From Verrucomicrobiaceae bacterium (GTDB lineage Bacteria; Pseudomonadota; Gammaproteobacteria; Pseudomonadales; CAMLJR01), in NCBI GenBank assembly GCA_028293825.1, contig JAQGNY010000012.1, forward strand, positions 62,001 to 126,000: a stretch of DNA of 64,000 bases, written 5' to 3'. Under the pieces are notes generated by a model. That model did not search any database, was not told the origin of the DNA, and saw only the letters and a program-made list of their open reading frames with translations. Position numbers and translations under genes: made by a program. Positions within the stretch are counted from its first letter, which is position 1, and every line of letters starts with the position of its first letter. Of the stretch, positions 8,417 to 42,873 are shown in pieces.

Positions 8417-8503
8417 TGGTGCCCGGGGACGGACTCGAACCGTCATGATGTCACCATCGGTGGATTTTGAATCCACTGCGTCTACCGATTTCGCCACCCG
8501 GGC
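8417..8503 (-). tRNA. tRNA-Leu (anticodon CAA)
   Basis: Read on the minus strand, the 87-nt sequence starts GCCCGGGTGGCGAAATCGG and ends with an encoded CCA at 8417-8419. The acceptor stem pairs GCCCGGG with CCCGGGC. The anticodon stem-loop is GTGGA-TTCAAAA-TCCAC, giving CAA. A long class II variable arm (about GATGGTGACATC) and the T loop GGTTCGAGTCC are present. All of this fits bacterial tRNA-Leu(CAA). Confidence 0.97.
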
Positions 8504-8635: not shown

Positions 8636-9108
8636 CGCTTTCTCTGAACTCCGCGCCCCTGGTTTAGAACAGAAAAGAGCTGGTTGCGAGCAGTAATTAG
8701 CTCGCGCCAACCACCCTCGATCTATCCCGGAGCAAGCTCTAGCTATCTCGCCACAGGAAAAAGCTCGCTCCAAGTGACCTCGAGCTATGGTCGACAGAGC
8801 TTGAACTATCGCCGAGCGAGCTCGATCTATCCGCACACAAGCTCGAGCTATCACCGAGATAGCTTTATCTATAGTCGACTGAGCTCGAGCTATCTCCACG
8901 ATAGCTTTATCTATCGCCGAATGAGCTCGATCTATCCGCGCATTAGCTCGAGCTATCTCCGGGATATATCTACTGCCGAGCAAGCTCAAGCTATCCGCAC
9001 ACGAGCTTTAGCTGTCTCCGAATGAGCTAGAGCTCAGTCCGCACCAGCTCAAGCTCGCTACGAGCACGCTTTAGTGCTATCGGAAACAGCTTCAGATAAT
9101 GGCGAGCG
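8636..9108. repeat. Degenerate 21-bp tandem repeat array
   Basis: About 20 head-to-tail copies of a 21-bp unit, roughly AGCTCGAGCTATCNCCGNNNN. Exact-length units run at 8777, 8798, 8819, 8840, 8861, 8882, 8903, 8924 and 8945. One shortened 17-bp unit (8966-8982) follows, then units at 8983, 9004, 9025, 9046, 9067 and 9088. The left part is more decayed and holds a 36-bp (15+21) higher-order repeat at 8699-8734 and 8762-8797. Pairs of units are also duplicated (8819-8860 resembles 8924-8965). Many units carry the palindrome AGCTCGAGCT. The period equals seven codons and two DNA turns. Open frames exist on both strands, but none has a good start. Confidence 0.9.
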
Positions 9109-10967: not shown

Positions 10968-10982
10968 AAGAACAGCTCGTAG

Positions 10983-34541: not shown

Positions 34542-35306
34542 TTAGAAAAAACCGGACATCGCATAGGCCATTTTCTTAAACATCTGATCTTGTGCATCTT
34601 CAAGTTTTAGATTGGCCTTGTTGCCTGTAGTTACGATGCGCGTTCGATATTCCTTGCGATCAGAAACTTCAGACAACGTTTGTTGACTCGATCCGGCATC
34701 GGAATTTTTCACGTTTACTTTGGAGTCTTTGCGAACGATTACTCCTTCTTTGGCCTTTTCGGTAATTTGCACGTCGCAGACCAGCATGTACGTTACATTT
34801 TTAACGAGAGCTCCAGAAATTAGTTCGGCTCCCCCGCCAAGAATTCCACCTCCCACAATGCCGTTCACGGGATGGCTGGTATTTGCGATGCCTCCCACTG
34901 CTGCTCCGGCAATTATTGCACCACCCATATAGCCTTTATTTAATGCTTCTTCTGCGGCTGTTGGATTGGTTTTTTCCAAATTTAAAACATATGCAACCAT
35001 TTGAAATTGCGCTTTCTCCGGATCATCAATTATTTGATAGCCATCTTCATTAGAAACAAATTGCTCGCGAACAAAATCTTTGAACTTGCGTCGATCGAAC
35101 TCCATCACACCACTTTTAATATCCAGATAAATCGTACGCTTCGGTCTTGATACGGGGTCCACAAAAACTGGTGTTGATGTTCGAGCCTGCACCTCAAGAT
35201 CTTTATGGGAGAGGGCAGTTTCTGTAGCTGCGCAACCGGCGAGCGTTGCGATAATTGCAGCAACAAAGAAAAGTTTTTTGTATTTAAAAAAGATTGGATT
35301 ATTCAT
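34542..35306 (-). CDS. TraT-like outer-membrane lipoprotein
   Basis: A 254-residue lipoprotein: hydrophobic N-terminus with lipobox LAGC (Cys at about residue 25). The body matches the TraT complement-resistance/surface-exclusion family: SRPKRTIYLDIKSG, a Gly/Ala-rich middle (GGAIIAGAAVGGIA, GIVGGGILGGGAELI) forming a membrane-inserting segment, and DVQITEKAKEGVIVRKDS; it ends MAYAMSGFF. TraT is best known from conjugative plasmids, but chromosomal homologues are common, and no conjugation genes are present here. Ser at +2 is not visible (CAAT), which favours the outer membrane. Confidence 0.87.
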   Translation of the reverse strand: MNNPIFFKYKKLFFVAAIIATLAGCAATETALSHKDLEVQARTSTPVFVDPVSRPKRTIYLDIKSGVMEFDRRKFKDFVREQFVSNEDGYQIIDDPEKAQFQMVAYVLNLEKTNPTAAEEALNKGYMGGAIIAGAAVGGIANTSHPVNGIVGGGILGGGAELISGALVKNVTYMLVCDVQITEKAKEGVIVRKDSKVNVKNSDAGSSQQTLSEVSDRKEYRTRIVTTGNKANLKLEDAQDQMFKKMAYAMSGFF

Positions 35307-35358
35307 AGATTGCTCCTAGCAAAATATCCTTAATAAAATGTAAATTCCGTAGCCCTAC

Positions 35359-35688
35359 CTACCAATAGCGGCCGTAATAGCGGTGGTAGTACATGCAGTC
35401 GCGATAGCCGTTGTAGTTATAGGTGTAGGTCTGATAATAGGAATCGCAGGTGTAGCCAGACTGCCAGCCGTTGGGGGCAACTTTTTTGGGTTGAAGATTT
35501 TTTTTCATCGCGTCGGCGATGTAGGTGTCGATTTTTGCCACATCTTCAACTGCAAAGGGTTTATCCATTGTTTCTTGATTGAGCTTTTTTTGCATTTCAG
35601 CTCTATCGGAAGCGGTATCGGCAAAAGAAGTGGCAGCAGAGATAAGCAGAAGGGGGAAAAGCGCGGTACGAAGAATGGATGTATTCAT
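35359..35688 (-). CDS. Small exported tyrosine-rich protein
   Basis: A 109-residue protein with a signal peptide (MNTSILRTALFPLLLISAAT, cut near SFA-DTA). A helical middle segment follows, then a C-terminus very rich in Tyr (YYQTYTYNYNGYRDCMYYHR, ending YYGRYW) with two Cys. Such tails occur in small surface or spore-coat-like proteins, but I recognise no family. It lies 53 bp upstream of the TraT-like gene on the same strand, so the two are probably cotranscribed, and divergent from the membrane protein beginning near 35938. Confidence 0.65.
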   Translation of the reverse strand: MNTSILRTALFPLLLISAATSFADTASDRAEMQKKLNQETMDKPFAVEDVAKIDTYIADAMKKNLQPKKVAPNGWQSGYTCDSYYQTYTYNYNGYRDCMYYHRYYGRYW

Positions 35689-35937
35689 TCGCGAACTTCC
35701 TTGTCGAGTTGGGTGTCAGGAACTGCCCGTTTCCGTCGGCAGCAAGTGCGCGAATAGTAAGGAGCGCTTGTTCAACCTGTCAACTACGGACAAGTGATAT
35801 TTAAGAGTACGTCAAAGATGGAAAGTGTGAGTGAACTCTTCGTCGAGCAGTTTTCATTGTGTAAAAGTAAGCGGCGATTTATCGTCATAGCCATAAACCA
35901 GACGCACACTTATTTAAGGTTTTTGGGGCCAGACCAT

Positions 35938-36615
35938 ATGCAGGATGTTCTTCATTTAATTATAAATAGCCCGCTTGGGCTTATTGGTTTTGGTTTTATC
36001 GTATTTGCATTGCTGTGTTGGCCGCGAGGTCGGGCATGGCTGGTCGGTCTTATCGTTATTATTTTTCTTATTATCTGGGCGCTCTCCGCTTTGCAGAGCG
36101 GTATTCGCCATGCGGAGCAAGCCGGCGAACAAAAAATCCAAAACGGTAAAGATTGGCTCGACGATCACATTCCCGACTGGTGGAAAAAGTTAATGCCAGA
36201 CGGTGGGTTTGGCGGCAAGGTTATCGACGCGGCTGCTGAGTCTTCCGAGGAAACGACCAAGCAATATTACGATTGCCTCGAAGATCAGGTTTGTCGTTTG
36301 CATCTGCAAAATTTTGCCAGCGATTGTTATAAACAGCCGAACATCGGCGGCTGGAATTCCTGCGTTCTGAATGCGCTCAATCACAATGCCTCGACCGAAT
36401 ATGACAATTCTGCGGTGATCGGTTTCTGCCGGCAAAAAGAAGCGGTAGTTGGTCAACTGGCAGAGCCGGGCGAACATCTTCTCTGTTCTTTTATTCCGAA
36501 GCTGCCGAAGTTTCTTGTCAAATACGCGCCAAAATTAAATGAAAGCTTAAAGTGCCCGATTGATATGACGCCCACGCAATACGTGCATTGTTTGCCGGGC
36601 GCTCGGCCTAAGTGA
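35938..36615 (+). CDS. Small membrane protein with Cys-rich extracytoplasmic domain
   Basis: From ATG 35938 the protein has 225 residues: two closely spaced transmembrane helices (SPLGLIGFGFIVFALLCW and AWLVGLIVIIFLIIWALSAL, residues ~9-52), an amphipathic stretch (WLDDHIPDWWKKLMPDGGF), and a C-terminal domain with eight Cys (YYDCLEDQVCRLHLQNF, ASDCYKQ, NSCVLNAL, GFCRQK, LLCSFIP, LKCPIDM and VHCLPG). The frame is open back to 35794, with GTG 35794 or ATG 35818 as alternatives; the start is uncertain. The Cys-rich part is probably periplasmic and disulfide-bonded. No family is recognised. It precedes the lipoprotein/AAA+ genes on the same strand. Confidence 0.65.
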   Translation: MQDVLHLIINSPLGLIGFGFIVFALLCWPRGRAWLVGLIVIIFLIIWALSALQSGIRHAEQAGEQKIQNGKDWLDDHIPDWWKKLMPDGGFGGKVIDAAAESSEETTKQYYDCLEDQVCRLHLQNFASDCYKQPNIGGWNSCVLNALNHNASTEYDNSAVIGFCRQKEAVVGQLAEPGEHLLCSFIPKLPKFLVKYAPKLNESLKCPIDMTPTQYVHCLPGARPK

Positions 36616-36815
36616 TTTATGGCAGTTTGGCCAGTAAGAAAAGATTAAGGTCGAGGAAATATTAATGGCGGGAAGGATGAATATTCTGTAGTAGGCCACA
36701 TGCTGGAAATCTAATCAGCTTGTGGCATGATGGTTCGCCGCTTTTTAAAAAAATATCTGCGCCATGCAGCGCATGCATTTATCAAAATAACGCCCGACTT
36801 CAGAAGGATTTGCCC

Positions 36816-37622
36816 ATGCCCCGGCTGCCGAAATCTACTTGTTCATTGGTCTTGTTTTTCGTCGTTGCGGGTTGCGCACAAAATGGCGGCGGCTCGAAAA
36901 CTAATACCGGCACGGCGGTGGGCGCTGTCGCCGGAGCTGCTGTTGGTGCTTCCGTTGCGAAAAATAAAGCGGCAGGTGCGGTGCTCGGTGCATTGCTGGG
37001 TGGGCTCATCGGCAATCGTATTGGCAATTTGCTCGATGAGCGCGATCAGGCGCGCTTACAGGAGTCGACGCAAAAGTCGATTGTCACCGGCACCAATCAG
37101 ACCTGGACTAATCCCGAAACCGGCGTACAGGCAAAAACCGTGGTGAAGGAAACACCGCCGCCGCCACCACAAGAGCGCCAAATTCCGGTGCTGAAAAATA
37201 AAGTTAAACAATTGCCGCCGCTGGAATTGATTGGTGAGGATTATGCCGCGTTGACGGATATAAACGTGCGTGGCGGTCCCGCCGCCGACTATGAAATCGT
37301 CGATCAATTAAAGCGTGGCGCAGATGTTCACGTGGTCGGCAAAGTGAAAGGTCAAAACTGGTATTTGATTTCTCAAAATGGCGCCGGTAGCGGTTTCGTT
37401 GCATCCAACTTGGTGAAGTCGTTGGGCACTGCGACGGTGGTGGCGAAAGCCGACCCCGCTAAAGCTGCAGTTCCTGATGCGAATATTGTGCAAACGCCGG
37501 TTGCATCGACCACAACGTGTCGTGTTGTCACACAACAAGTGAAAACAAAAAATGGACAGACTGCAAACCAGGATGTGAAAGCTTGTCGCGGTCCGAATGG
37601 CTGGGAAATTGTTGCTGCGTAA
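36816..37622 (+). CDS. Lipoprotein with glycine-zipper and SH3 domains
   Basis: A 268-residue lipoprotein: the N-terminal hydrophobic segment ends in the lipobox VVAGC. A glycine-zipper segment (GTAVGAVAGAAVGASVAK and LGALLGGLIGNRIG, about residues 30-72) of the 17-kDa surface-antigen/2TM type comes next. A Pro-rich linker precedes a bacterial SH3 domain (about 140-210; INVRGGPAADYEIVDQLKRG and GSGFVASNLVKS). The C-terminus has a Cys pair (TTCRVVTQQ and VKACRGPNG). ATG 36816 has AAGGA 8 nt upstream; the longer open frame from 36720 has no such support. SH3 modules of this kind often bind peptidoglycan. The AAA+ gene follows after 63 bp. Confidence 0.85.
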   Translation: MPRLPKSTCSLVLFFVVAGCAQNGGGSKTNTGTAVGAVAGAAVGASVAKNKAAGAVLGALLGGLIGNRIGNLLDERDQARLQESTQKSIVTGTNQTWTNPETGVQAKTVVKETPPPPPQERQIPVLKNKVKQLPPLELIGEDYAALTDINVRGGPAADYEIVDQLKRGADVHVVGKVKGQNWYLISQNGAGSGFVASNLVKSLGTATVVAKADPAKAAVPDANIVQTPVASTTTCRVVTQQVKTKNGQTANQDVKACRGPNGWEIVAA

Positions 37623-37685
37623 CTCTTCTTTCAAATAACGCGTCGCACACGACGCGATTTTTAAAAATTGTGTCTGGGATTCTTT

Positions 37686-40600
37686 ATGTCGTCGCGCGCT
37701 CGTCTTTTTATTGTCTCTCGCATTGTTTGTTTTTTGATTGCGGGGATATCACTCTGTATCGCGACACCGCTCGCGCATGCCGATCGCACATTGCTTACTC
37801 ACGAAGGCATCGAAGCAAAAGTGCCTGATGGCAGTGCCTGGTGCAGCAAAAATGCTGGCGTGGTGTTGTGGGCCAATAAAGCCGACGATTTTTTAGATAC
37901 GGAATTGATACAAAAATTATTGGGCGGCCTGCGCGCGGCGCTGTCGTTTGAATGTCCAGAGGCGGAAAAAGTAACCTTAGTTGGCGCGCTGAATTCCAGC
38001 GGCACGCCGATTTATAAAGCTACTGCAAGCGCTGCGAACAATTGGCAGCTTGTCGTCGAAAAGTCCCCGGCACCGGTCGCCGCCGCGCCACAATCCAGCG
38101 TTGCTGCCGCCACTCAGGTTCAAACGCGCGCAGTCGTTGAGGCTGCGCCGCCAAAACGTAAAGCGGTAGAGCCCATCGTCAATACGGCTGCTTCCGCGCC
38201 AATACCAACAGCCGATCAGGAGTCGGGAAATAACGTCTATTGGCTCGCGGCAATCATTCCCATCGCATTGCTGATCTGGTTCTTATGGCGCCGCAAACGT
38301 AAGCCCGCAAAAATTCAGCGAGAAATTCCCGCCGCGCCACCGAAGTTTCGTCCGCCTGAAGTCGCGCCGCCTAAACCGCTTGAGCGCAGTGCTGAAATTC
38401 CAAAGGAGGACGTGCCCAAAGAAAAGGATCCGATATCATCGGTGCAAACGCCGCCTACGCCTGTTTTTACCGGTAGTTTTAAAGAAAAATTGCTCGCCGA
38501 ACAAAAATACAAGTATCAGCTTGCGATTAATAATGCGCTGGACGCACTGACCCAAAGTCAGATCGCATTGCAGCAGCGCGCGGCAATTCCGGAAAATTTG
38601 CGCAAAGAATTACGCCAACTCGCCGCTGCGTTGCAAAAAGATGTGCGGGATTTATTGCGCAAGCGCGATTTGAAAATGGGCAAGGCGATTTTAGAGGCGG
38701 TGATTTTAAAACCGCTATTCAAAGGTATTTGGCGGTTGCCGGTTATTCCACGTATCGCAGTAATCATCGGAGCGCTGGTATTGATTCAACGCGCCTTTAT
38801 TTCGATCGATGCGCGCCACTACGCACCGACTATTTTGGTGTATGTGTTTTTGTTGGCGTTGCCGGCATTTTTTCTCGCACGTCGACAACAGCTAAAAGGT
38901 GGAAGCGTTGCGCTGGATAAGGGCGCAGCGGGATTTAAATTGCCGTCGTTCTACTACGCCTATTCTGATCAGGTCGGGCAGATTAAAAACGCCGTAGCGG
39001 TTTACAAAGGCGTCGGTGTGCATGGCTCTGCGGAAAAATCGTTGGTCGAGGAAAGCGTGCTGACGCCGACGGGCAGCGACGTCAAAGCCGGTGCTGATAC
39101 CGTCCTGTTTTCGCTCGGCGATATGGCCTCTTATCGCGTGGCGAACAACGGCCAGCTCGCGCTGATTTACGCGCAGGCCGGCAATGAATACATGAATAAT
39201 TACAGCGCACTTTTGACCGAGACCGCCGTCGCGCACAGCGAGGAATTTCCGCCGTTGGCAAGTGCACTGCGCGAATACGGCGAACTGCGTTGGCGCGAGC
39301 GGCGTCAGCGCGAGGAAATTCCGCGCCTCGAGCACTTGGTGAAAAGTGTCGAGCGCTTGGAAGAAATTTGGAATCCAGTATTTGTAGATGGCAAGGTTTT
39401 CGATTTTCTTTTACGTCGTATCGATTTATTTAATTTGCGCGATCGCGCCACGCCGGCCGGCATTTTGTTACACGGTTATCGCGGCAACGGTAAAGAATTT
39501 CTCGCGCGAAAAATTGCGGAATCGGTTTTCGCCAAATTCGTTAAAATCAGTGCCGCTGATATGACTTCAGCAAAAGAAGTGCGTGAGCTGTGGGCGGCGC
39601 AACACGACGAAGAGTCGGTGGTGTTGTATGTCGACTACTCTGAGCAAATCTTCGCGCGTGCCGGCGATGGCGAAGGCGCGAATCGCGAAACAATGCTGGC
39701 ATGGTTGGAAGCGTGGTCCGAGCACGATATCGCGCACGGTAATATTTGGGTGGTGATGTCGGCGCAGAGTGATCAGGCGCTGCATCAAAATATTCTCGGA
39801 CATTTCGGCAGTTCCAAAATCGAAGTGGGTGCACCCGATGCAAAAGGGCGCGCAACGATTTTGCGCAATGCCTGCAACGAAAATCAGTTGCAGGCGATGG
39901 CGCCGCAATGGGTGGTCGAAAGCACCGGCGGCGCGTCGATTCGCGAGCTGCGCGATATCGTCAAGGAAACCAAATTGCATTCGGTGCCGAATCTCGCCAC
40001 CGATGCGCATTGGCGTCAGGCAATCGCGAATGTTCGCGGCACCGAAGCCGGTTTGAAGGACGAGCGCAAAACCTGGGATCGTTTGGTATTGCCCGGCGAA
40101 ATAAAAGAGCAATTGCAGCGTGTCTCACGCATTTTGCGCGAGGCCGATCGCTATAAAGAAAAAGGCGTCAGCGTGCCGAATGTTTTATTGTTCGGCCCGC
40201 CAGGCACTGGCAAAACAGATATTGCGCGCACCTTCGCCAATGAAGGCGGCGTGAAATTCATGATGGCAACGACGGCGGATTTGAAGGCCGAATATATCGG
40301 CCAGTCGGCGCACCGAGTGCGCGATGTGTTTGCCAAAGCGCGCGCCAGCGCACCCTGTGTTTTATTTATCGATGAAATAGAAACAGTGGCCGCAAAACGC
40401 GGCTCATCGAGCGGTGATAGTTTCACGCAGGAAATTGTTACCGAGTTATTGCAGCAAATGGACGGCGCGCGCAAAACCGATGACCGTCAGGTGTTCGTGC
40501 TCGCCGCCACTAATCGACCCGAAGATATCGACTCCGCCATTCTCAGCCGCTTCACCAGCAAAATTGAAATTCCGTTGCCCGATGAAGACGCGCGCCGCGA

Positions 40601-42332
40601 AATGTTGAAGCGCTTAATTGCCGAGCGTGCAGTCGATCCGGCAATGGATGTCGAGGAAATTTCGGCATTGTTGGCGAAGCGATTAAATCGAAAAAGTGGA
40701 CGCGATCTGGTCAGCTTGATTAGCCGCGCAATGGAGCGCGCGGTGATGGTGGCCGATTCGCCGGATGACGTAAAACTCACGCGCGATTTATTGCTGGCCG
40801 AAGTAGCGCCGCAGGGCGGTCGCCAAGTATCGGAAACGGAAATTCAGGCTGCGTGGTCGCGGATTATTTTAGCGCCTGCGATTAAAGAATCGATCATCAG
40901 CAAGATTCGTATGTTTAGTAATGGCGATAAAGCGGCGCCGCGCGGCCTGTTGTTATTCGGCCCGCCTGGTACCGGAAAAACCGAAATCGCGCGACGCATT
41001 GCCGATTCGGCAGGCTGTTATTTCATGGCGTTGTCCGGCCCTGATTTGAAAGCGGGTTATGTCGGTCAAAGCGGGCAGAACGTACGCAAAATTTGGGAGC
41101 AGGCGCGAGCGCGCGGTCGTTGCGTTATTTTTATCGATGAGTGCGAAGGTGTGTTTTCACGGCGCGGCTCGATCAATGCCGATTCGGCATCGGACGAATT
41201 GGTGCAGGCATTTCTCGCAGAATGGGACGGCGTGGCATCGGACGGTCAGGTGTGGGTCGTCGGTGCCACCAATCGCCGCGATTTATTGGACGATGCGATT
41301 GTGTCGCGCTTCGGCGCCGCCGTTGAAATCGGTATGCCGGAAGCGCCCGAACGAGTAAAAATCCTGCAGCTGGAAATGGAAAAACTCGAACGCAAAACTG
41401 AAATTCCCGAATTTATCGGCAAACAGACAGCAGGATTTTCCGGCCGCAATTTATCGATGCTGGCGCGCGAAGTCTGCACGCTGGCGGTAGAGTTTGGCGG
41501 GGTGATTACCGATGATTTATGGCGCGCCGTACTGAAACGAAATGCGCAAACCAATACTGAATCGGTGGACGAGCACGCAAAATGGGATGCATTGATTCTC
41601 GCCGAAGATACGCTCGATAAATTAAAAACGATTTGCGAATCGTTGCGTCATGTTGAAGTGTTGAAGCAACAGGGTTTTGAGGTGCCGCGCGGCGCTTTGT
41701 TATACGGCCCGCCCGGAACCGGCAAAACACAGATTGCGCGCACGATGGCAAACGAAAGCGGCTTATCGTTTATTTCTGCTACCACGGCGGATATTAAAGC
41801 CGGTTACATCGGCCAGTCCGGTCAGAAAACCAAGGAATTGTTCGAGCGCGCGCGCGGCAAAGCGCCGTGCATTTTATTTATTGATGAAATGGAATCGATT
41901 GCGCCGGCACGCGGCAGTGCGGGTGCCGATCAATTTACCAATGAGGTTGTCACGCAATTGCTGCAAGAGCTCGACGGTGTGAAAAAAAGCGAGCGCCATG
42001 TTTTTTTATTGGCGGCGACAAATATTCCGAATGCCATCGATTCGGCGATTCGCTCGCGCTTCGAAGACGAAATCGAAATTCCGAATCCCGATAAGTCGCA
42101 ACGCCAGCGTTTATTCGAATTGTTTTTGCGCAAACAAAAAAACCTTGATTTCGATATCGCGCAAATGGCGGAAAAGCTGGCGCATGCGGCTGGTGATGTG
42201 GGGGGGCGCGATATTCGCAATATCGTGCAACGTGCATCGCAGCGTGCAATTCGTCGCGCAATAAATGCAGGCACGCCGGATCGTGTGCAATTGGTTGATT
42301 TGGATTTGCTCGCGGAAATCGGTGCGGCGTGA
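37686..42332 (+). CDS. Membrane-anchored protein with four AAA+ modules
   Basis: A 1548-residue protein. Residues 1-33 are a signal peptide or anchor (ending ATPLAHA). About 34-130 is an extracytoplasmic domain with two Cys, followed by an Ala/Pro linker. A transmembrane helix lies near 185-203 (WLAAIIPIALLIWFLW), a coiled/helical region near 255-340, and two more hydrophobic helices near 352-398. Then come four AAA+ modules. Module 1 (Walker A GYRGNGKE, about 592; Walker B lacks Glu) is degenerate. Modules 2, 3 and 4 have intact GPPGTGKT at residues 837, 1092 and 1341, Walker B FIDE at about 896, 1149 and 1398, and Arg-finger motifs (SAILSRF, DAIVSRF, SAIRSRF). They are CDC48/FtsH-like, but no protease domain is present. 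The ATG at 37686 has GGGA upstream. The role is probably ATP-driven remodelling at the inner membrane. Confidence 0.9.
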   Translation: MSSRARLFIVSRIVCFLIAGISLCIATPLAHADRTLLTHEGIEAKVPDGSAWCSKNAGVVLWANKADDFLDTELIQKLLGGLRAALSFECPEAEKVTLVGALNSSGTPIYKATASAANNWQLVVEKSPAPVAAAPQSSVAAATQVQTRAVVEAAPPKRKAVEPIVNTAASAPIPTADQESGNNVYWLAAIIPIALLIWFLWRRKRKPAKIQREIPAAPPKFRPPEVAPPKPLERSAEIPKEDVPKEKDPISSVQTPPTPVFTGSFKEKLLAEQKYKYQLAINNALDALTQSQIALQQRAAIPENLRKELRQLAAALQKDVRDLLRKRDLKMGKAILEAVILKPLFKGIWRLPVIPRIAVIIGALVLIQRAFISIDARHYAPTILVYVFLLALPAFFLARRQQLKGGSVALDKGAAGFKLPSFYYAYSDQVGQIKNAVAVYKGVGVHGSAEKSLVEESVLTPTGSDVKAGADTVLFSLGDMASYRVANNGQLALIYAQAGNEYMNNYSALLTETAVAHSEEFPPLASALREYGELRWRERRQREEIPRLEHLVKSVERLEEIWNPVFVDGKVFDFLLRRIDLFNLRDRATPAGILLHGYRGNGKEFLARKIAESVFAKFVKISAADMTSAKEVRELWAAQHDEESVVLYVDYSEQIFARAGDGEGANRETMLAWLEAWSEHDIAHGNIWVVMSAQSDQALHQNILGHFGSSKIEVGAPDAKGRATILRNACNENQLQAMAPQWVVESTGGASIRELRDIVKETKLHSVPNLATDAHWRQAIANVRGTEAGLKDERKTWDRLVLPGEIKEQLQRVSRILREADRYKEKGVSVPNVLLFGPPGTGKTDIARTFANEGGVKFMMATTADLKAEYIGQSAHRVRDVFAKARASAPCVLFIDEIETVAAKRGSSSGDSFTQEIVTELLQQMDGARKTDDRQVFVLAATNRPEDIDSAILSRFTSKIEIPLPDEDARREMLKRLIAERAVDPAMDVEEISALLAKRLNRKSGRDLVSLISRAMERAVMVADSPDDVKLTRDLLLAEVAPQGGRQVSETEIQAAWSRIILAPAIKESIISKIRMFSNGDKAAPRGLLLFGPPGTGKTEIARRIADSAGCYFMALSGPDLKAGYVGQSGQNVRKIWEQARARGRCVIFIDECEGVFSRRGSINADSASDELVQAFLAEWDGVASDGQVWVVGATNRRDLLDDAIVSRFGAAVEIGMPEAPERVKILQLEMEKLERKTEIPEFIGKQTAGFSGRNLSMLAREVCTLAVEFGGVITDDLWRAVLKRNAQTNTESVDEHAKWDALILAEDTLDKLKTICESLRHVEVLKQQGFEVPRGALLYGPPGTGKTQIARTMANESGLSFISATTADIKAGYIGQSGQKTKELFERARGKAPCILFIDEMESIAPARGSAGADQFTNEVVTQLLQELDGVKKSERHVFLLAATNIPNAIDSAIRSRFEDEIEIPNPDKSQRQRLFELFLRKQKNLDFDIAQMAEKLAHAAGDVGGRDIRNIVQRASQRAIRRAINAGTPDRVQLVDLDLLAEIGAA

Positions 42333-42366
42333 GCCGACTTCATAAATCGTTTTTAGGCGATTGAAC

Positions 42367-42873
42367 ATGGCAGATTCACAATCCAAGCACCAAGCAAAAA
42401 AACGCGCGCAATCGAGCGATCAGTCGTCCAATGAATCCATCGATAAATCGTCCGCACGGGATTTAACCGGACAGGAAAGCTCGCGTGAAAGCGGTGATAG
42501 CGATAAAAAGCCCGGTGTGCAACTCGCCGAAGAAAAAGCCACGGCGGGGCAATTGGGTGAATGCAATCTGCGCATCGAGTGGATCGATGTTTGGGTGGGA
42601 AACTCCAAACCGTGTCAGTTCAACGTGGTAACGGCAGACGGCAATAATCTTGAGATCGAATTGACGCAACTGTCTTATCGAAAAACTTACGCAGGTGCTG
42701 GCGCTGTTAAAACGGACGTTTTACCAATTGTGCCTATCGGTACGCGCGGCAAATTAATTGCGCGCGATATCACGACCGGTGAAGTCTTGGAGCAAACCTG
42801 GATTTGGCACAGCATGGGCCAGTCTTTCTTCGGCTGGCTGATTGCCACCGCGCGCAAATTATTCGTCGGTTAA
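42367..42873 (+). CDS. Small protein cotranscribed with the four-AAA+ gene
   Basis: A 168-residue protein starting at ATG 42367, 34 bp after the AAA+ stop. The first ~60 residues are hydrophilic and low in complexity (Ser, Lys, Gln, Glu), probably disordered. Residues ~62-150 form a beta-rich domain (NLRIEWIDVWVGNSKPCQFN, LPIVPIGTRGKLIARDI), and the C-terminus is hydrophobic/amphipathic (QSFFGWLIATARKLFVG), possibly a membrane contact. No family is recognised. By position it may be an adaptor or substrate of the AAA+ protein; this is an inference from operon structure only. Confidence 0.7.
   Translation: MADSQSKHQAKKRAQSSDQSSNESIDKSSARDLTGQESSRESGDSDKKPGVQLAEEKATAGQLGECNLRIEWIDVWVGNSKPCQFNVVTADGNNLEIELTQLSYRKTYAGAGAVKTDVLPIVPIGTRGKLIARDITTGEVLEQTWIWHSMGQSFFGWLIATARKLFVG

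Follow-up and report, generated by a model that had tools for sequence, protein, structure and literature searches.

The window, a stretch of 64,000 nucleotides, contains a row of four genes on the forward strand in the interval between lysS and ygiQ. The positions and strand given for these genes in the initial annotation agree with the open reading frames and their translations.

35938-36615, + strand: P0002, 225 aa, orphan protein with two helices and a Cys-rich C-terminal domain (hydropathy, sequence)
36816-37622, + strand: P0003, 268 aa, Gly-zipper/SH3_3 lipoprotein (Pfam PF13488, PF05433 and PF08239; lipobox VAGC)
37686..42332 including the stop codon (coding to 42329), + strand: P0001, 1548 aa, membrane-anchored four-module AAA+ protein (ORF, translation, PF00004)
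42367-42873, + strand: P0004, 168 aa, orphan protein with no signal peptide (no family, no homologue in 56 relatives)

P0003 and P0001 are separated by 63 bp and P0001 and P0004 by 34 bp. The description of the genes as closely spaced was correct for these three, but not for P0002, which lies 200 bp upstream of P0003. A terminator-like hairpin (37639-37656, consensus match only) was located between P0003 and P0001. The identification of a glycine-zipper/SH3 lipoprotein before the AAA gene was confirmed by the lipobox, Gly-zipper and SH3_3 matches of P0003, and that of a Cys-rich membrane protein further upstream by the two membrane helices of P0002 and its nine Cys residues, eight of them past the helices.

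The distance between lysS and ygiQ is 8.4 kb in the window versus 3.7 kb in the single further genome of this genus, where unrelated genes lie between the two; the interval 34542-42873 is therefore variable. Codon usage of P0001 (0.272 bits/codon) falls within the range of most housekeeping genes of the window (0.2-0.38), which speaks against its having come in very recently from a genome with another composition and suggests a long-resident gene. No flanking direct repeats above short chance pairs were found as borders of a mobile element. The variable interval also holds a gene for a TraT-family lipoprotein (34542-35306; PF05818, E 1e-59), divergent from P0002, with a low GC content of 43% and atypical codons. 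A ygiQ homologue (G038:C3:317760-319916, L095) contains one in-frame TGA, which could be a sequencing error or indicate a broken gene.

Two repeat structures were observed elsewhere in the window. Positions 8700-9060, adjoining tRNA-Leu(caa) (8417-8503, - strand), form a non-coding array in which degenerate units recur every 21 nt (AGCTCGAGCTATC...), so that each unit spans two helical turns. A 25-nt repeat (AGCxCGTAGGGCGCAATAAG...) recurs at 10974, 11689, 12701 and 14547, after each of several genes in a cassette-like row; the preceding genes include a SpoU-like methylase, an ankyrin protein and a DUF2971 gene; of all genes in the window, the last has the least typical codon usage.

Hydropathy peaks in P0001 were found at residues 7-25, 183-201, 357-375 and 380-398, the first belonging to the signal peptide. 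Together with four stretches matching PF00004 (E 2e-121, 400.7 bits against a cut-off of 21.2), they bear out the earlier description of a membrane-anchored protein with an exported domain, three transmembrane helices and four AAA+ modules. P0001 is a member of the classical AAA family, with three complete modules containing Walker A and B motifs and the SRH arginine finger. Its parts are as follows.

37686..37781, + strand: signal peptide, residues 1-32 (hydrophobic core 7-25, cleavage-like site AHA|D)
37782..38075, + strand: predicted exported domain, residues 33-130, two Cys (AF2 model, fold searches)
38232..38288, + strand: TM1, residues 183-201, followed by RRKRK, probably on the cytoplasmic side (hydropathy, sequence)
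38754..38879, + strand: TM2-TM3 hairpin, residues 357-398 (hydropathy)
39366..40055, + strand: AAA module 1 (A-type), predicted pseudo-ATPase (module alignment, motif positions)
40071..40805, + strand: AAA module 2 (B-type), intact, pore loop EYIG (module alignment, motif positions)
40851..41555, + strand: AAA module 3 (A-type), intact, pore loop GYVG (module alignment, motif positions)
41586..42329, + strand: AAA module 4 (B-type), intact, pore loop GYIG (module alignment, motif positions)

Because of the cleavage-like site and the RRKRK stretch after TM1, the N-terminus is probably exported and the AAA part cytosolic. The most parsimonious topology that we infer has residues 33-182 outside, then TM1, a set of predicted helices in the cytosol, the TM2-TM3 hairpin, and finally a cytosolic domain with the AAA part. 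In a single-sequence AF2 model, the exported domain was predicted as beta-beta-beta-alpha-beta-beta-beta (pLDDT 72, pTM 0.58), while the model of residues 31-560 reached a pLDDT of only 47.7. Fold searches with the exported domain gave no confident match (Foldseek best E 0.02, VIA best Z 6.1); the candidates, all with Z of about 6 or less, included family II pyrophosphatase, histidine racemase and the T2SS pilotin AspS, among others. Weak sequence matches to this domain among relatives proved on inspection to be due to chance.

The P-loops of P0001 read GYRGNGKE at residue 597 and GPPGTGKT at 837, 1092 and 1341, and the Walker B motifs VLYVDY at 646 and ...DE at 892, 1147 and 1396. Modules 2 to 4 are complete, with GPPGTGKT, hhhIDE, an ATN sensor 1, an SRF arginine finger and an aromatic pore loop 1 (Tyr at residues 870, 1125 and 1374). 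As had been noted earlier, module 1 has lost the Walker A Ser/Thr and the Walker B Glu while the other three are intact. The losses in module 1 go further: SAQSDQ stands in the place of GATNRR and GHF in that of SRF, and the pore loop is deleted. With five features gone (the Thr of Walker A, the Glu of Walker B, the Asn of sensor 1, the arginine finger and the pore loop), module 1 is to be classed as a pseudo-ATPase.

When 72,556 plasmids were searched by tblastn, two matches stood far above background, CP122394 and CP122395, plasmids p1 and p2 of an unrelated bacterium, Geminicoccaceae bacterium SCSIO 64248. Their proteins WGF90971.1 and WGF91092.1 (746 and 744 aa) match the last two modules of P0001 with 47% and 44% identity (E 4e-128 and 1e-117), the next best match having 35% or less. 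Both consist of a two-helix membrane hairpin and one A-B pair of modules, so that the plan of a membrane hairpin, some 130 aa and A-B is common to them and P0001. The membrane part is shared by layout only, because no similarity to the plasmid proteins was detected in the stretch from TM3 to module 1.

The four modules of P0001 were aligned with the modules of the two plasmid relatives. All eight modules (four from P0001, two from each plasmid protein) cluster together against other AAA with a support of 100/97, or 100/99 without long branches, which makes P0001 a member of the tandem AAA family of the Geminicoccaceae plasmids. Modules 1 and 3 group with the first module of each plasmid relative (G1, H1) in an A-type subclade with 99/99, and modules 2 and 4 with the second modules (G2, H2) in a B-type subclade with 90/67 (91/83 without long branches). 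P0001 therefore has the layout (A-B)-(A-B), and by its sequence the protein is a product of tandem duplication of a two-module A-B unit. As to the duplication versus the split from the plasmid lineage, module 4 grouped with the plasmid B modules (W4+G2+H2, 89/82), and a grouping of W2+W4 was allowed as well (p 0.14). AU tests rejected trees in which A or B was held with D1 or D2 of Cdc48 (p 0.0112, 0.0058, 0.0031 and 0.0055). The A and B types are thus not inherited from Cdc48 D1/D2, and the tandem AAA arrangement arose separately here, within an outgroup sample from which Vps4, katanin, Msp1 and other clades of eukaryotes were absent and with groups named after the first tree had been seen.

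P0001 is rare in the genomes sampled. Besides its own genome, no relative was found in the order (n=390), phylum (n=398) or sister-class (n=385) samples, the last without an internal positive control, nor in the class sample (n=369), which was searched with the N-terminal half and in which an A-type module would have shown; these samples overlap and cover only part of the known genomes. A scan of genome contigs for the whole of P0001 gave a single generic match. In plasmids and phages, only generic FtsH/CDC48 matches were obtained beyond the two Geminicoccaceae plasmids, and all matches on viral contigs were generic or due to chance.

In both plasmids, the gene order HTH-AAA-112aa-VirB11 is kept, with a RepC-like HTH protein and a two-helix 112-aa protein without a Pfam family. 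The tandem AAA gene and the gene for the 112-aa protein directly precede virB11 (L049 9227-11802, L050 9284-11853), and the surrounding cluster encodes VirB3, a VirB4-size ATPase, VirB6/TrbL, VirB8-10, a VirD4-type coupling protein and a TraA relaxase. These plasmid relatives hint that a conjugative type IV secretion system (T4SS) has an AAA component, encoded beside virB11, that has not been described before. P0002 was compared with the 112-aa protein, and the match (z 2.5) was unconvincing.

From the plasmid context, P0001 might be a component of a T4SS-like machine: the plasmid AAA protein may unfold or deliver secreted proteins, and P0001 would be a derived form at work in a different secretion apparatus. 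We consider this unlikely: the link is seen in one organism only, no T4SS structural gene lies beside P0001 (the TraT-family lipoprotein is not one), and neither VirB10 (PF03743) nor VirB4 (PF03135) was matched in its own genome (96% complete), although the PF03135 search is a weak test, as the plasmids' own VirB4 is also missed by it. Since these models find nothing in the genome, the T4SS link of the relatives does not carry over to P0001.

The initial annotation had proposed a four-gene machine spanning cytoplasm, inner membrane and cell wall. In such a machine, P0001 would be the motor, P0003 the anchor in the outer membrane or cell wall, P0002 a disulfide-bonded element in the periplasm and P0004 an adaptor in the cytosol, a guess from adjacency that draws on the common strand, the 63 and 34 bp spacing of P0003-P0001-P0004, the exported domain and the lipoprotein. 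The results make this improbable. Only one genome is known to carry the cluster, so that there is no conserved co-occurrence, unrelated genes fill the lysS-ygiQ interval of the congener, and the terminator-like hairpin lies between P0003 and P0001. For P0002 and P0004, no homologue was found in 56 related genomes or 72,556 plasmids and no family matched; co-occurrence of the cluster therefore cannot be shown. AAA homologues lacking these neighbours, the pattern named beforehand as speaking against the cluster, were seen in the plasmids with T4SS genes in their place, in a very small sample. The span to the cell wall had been drawn only from adjacency to the SH3/Gly-zipper lipoprotein P0003. 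P0003 is a possible partner of P0001 by that adjacency, and P0004, 34 bp downstream, is possibly a co-transcribed one.

An anti-phage or conflict system, in which P0001 would be the IetA-like AAA ATPase of a strain-specific lysS-ygiQ island, is very improbable. In its favour, three modules are hit by the IetA models of PADLOC (E 3e-114) and the congener's interval holds unrelated genes. On the other side, the NCBIfam NF042959 score of 369, summed over modules, lies below the cut-off of 510, generic CDC48, PAN and FtsH models score equally or higher, none of the scanned neighbours matches a protease such as IetS, and the codon usage is native.

With moderate confidence we propose that P0001 belongs to the classical AAA clade as a remodeler that is anchored in the inner membrane, threads proteins by ATP hydrolysis, probably works as a stacked-ring homohexamer and has no protease of its own. 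The aromatic pore loops in three modules and the intact arginine fingers indicate polypeptide threading (for the roles of the pore loop and the trans arginine finger in AAA proteins, see PMC7226402). Chains of P0001 would assemble into a homohexamer with stacked rings, one ring per module. If modules 1 and 3 alternated in one ring, module 3 would be left without a trans arginine finger, as module 1 has none; the full site kept in module 3 suggests a separate ring for every module type and four tiers in all. The module 1 ring would be inert and, facing the membrane, may serve as a scaffold or as a gate for the substrate, while modules 2 to 4 would form three active rings whose aromatic pore loops pull on the polypeptide. 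The exported domain and membrane helices would place the protein in the envelope, where it may couple to a partner in the periplasm or the membrane. Since P0001 is anchored at the membrane and has no protease domain, its likely job would be to take apart or extract an envelope-associated protein complex; the threading could also act on cytosolic substrates, with no role in the envelope. As a tentative extension of this proposal, P0001 may represent a four-tier bacterial AAA+ translocase, with three active rings and a dead gate ring, an inner-membrane anchor and an exported sensor domain, from a lineage with double rings independent of Cdc48 and linked to a T4SS in its only other known host.

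To our knowledge, classical AAA motors have one or two modules per chain, and a literature search turned up no earlier four-module chain of this class. P0001 scored above the curated cut-off of no system-level family, in agreement with the earlier statement that no named system has this composition. Among PDB profile matches, p97/Cdc48-type double-ring ATPases lead. P0001 and Cdc48/p97 (VAT, NSF-type) are both classical AAA proteins with modules in tandem, an arginine finger and an aromatic pore loop, but P0001 has four modules, a membrane anchor and an exported domain, its A and B types do not derive from D1 and D2, and its score with the CDC48 family (TIGR01243) was 462 versus a cut-off of 802.65. 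FtsH is likewise a membrane-anchored bacterial classical AAA protein with a periplasmic part, but has one module and an M41 protease, whereas module 4 of P0001 reaches the C-terminus; no M41 domain was found among the best 25 of 47 matching Pfam families, and the FtsH score (TIGR01241) was 453 versus a cut-off of 600. The IetA ATPase of the IetAS defence system is similar in that its profiles match the AAA modules, but P0001 scores below its cut-off and differs by having four modules, a membrane anchor and no IetS-like partner next door. The Geminicoccaceae plasmid proteins correspond one to one in their A and B types and also have a membrane hairpin before the AAA part, but contain one A-B pair with the first A module intact and no signal peptide or exported domain, and unlike P0001 sit in a conjugative T4SS operon beside virB11. 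Dynein, midasin and RNF213 are eukaryotic proteins with several AAA modules per chain, some inactive, of which six form a ring within one chain. P0001 resembles them in its many modules and the inactive one, and differs in having four, arranged as (A-B)x2. Set against these systems, P0001 would be Cdc48/p97-like in chemistry and FtsH- or Msp1-like in membrane tethering, and its chain of four modules, in which the A-B duplication can be traced and the first module alone has been inactivated, offers a natural experiment on the reason for double rings and on the task of an inactive ring.
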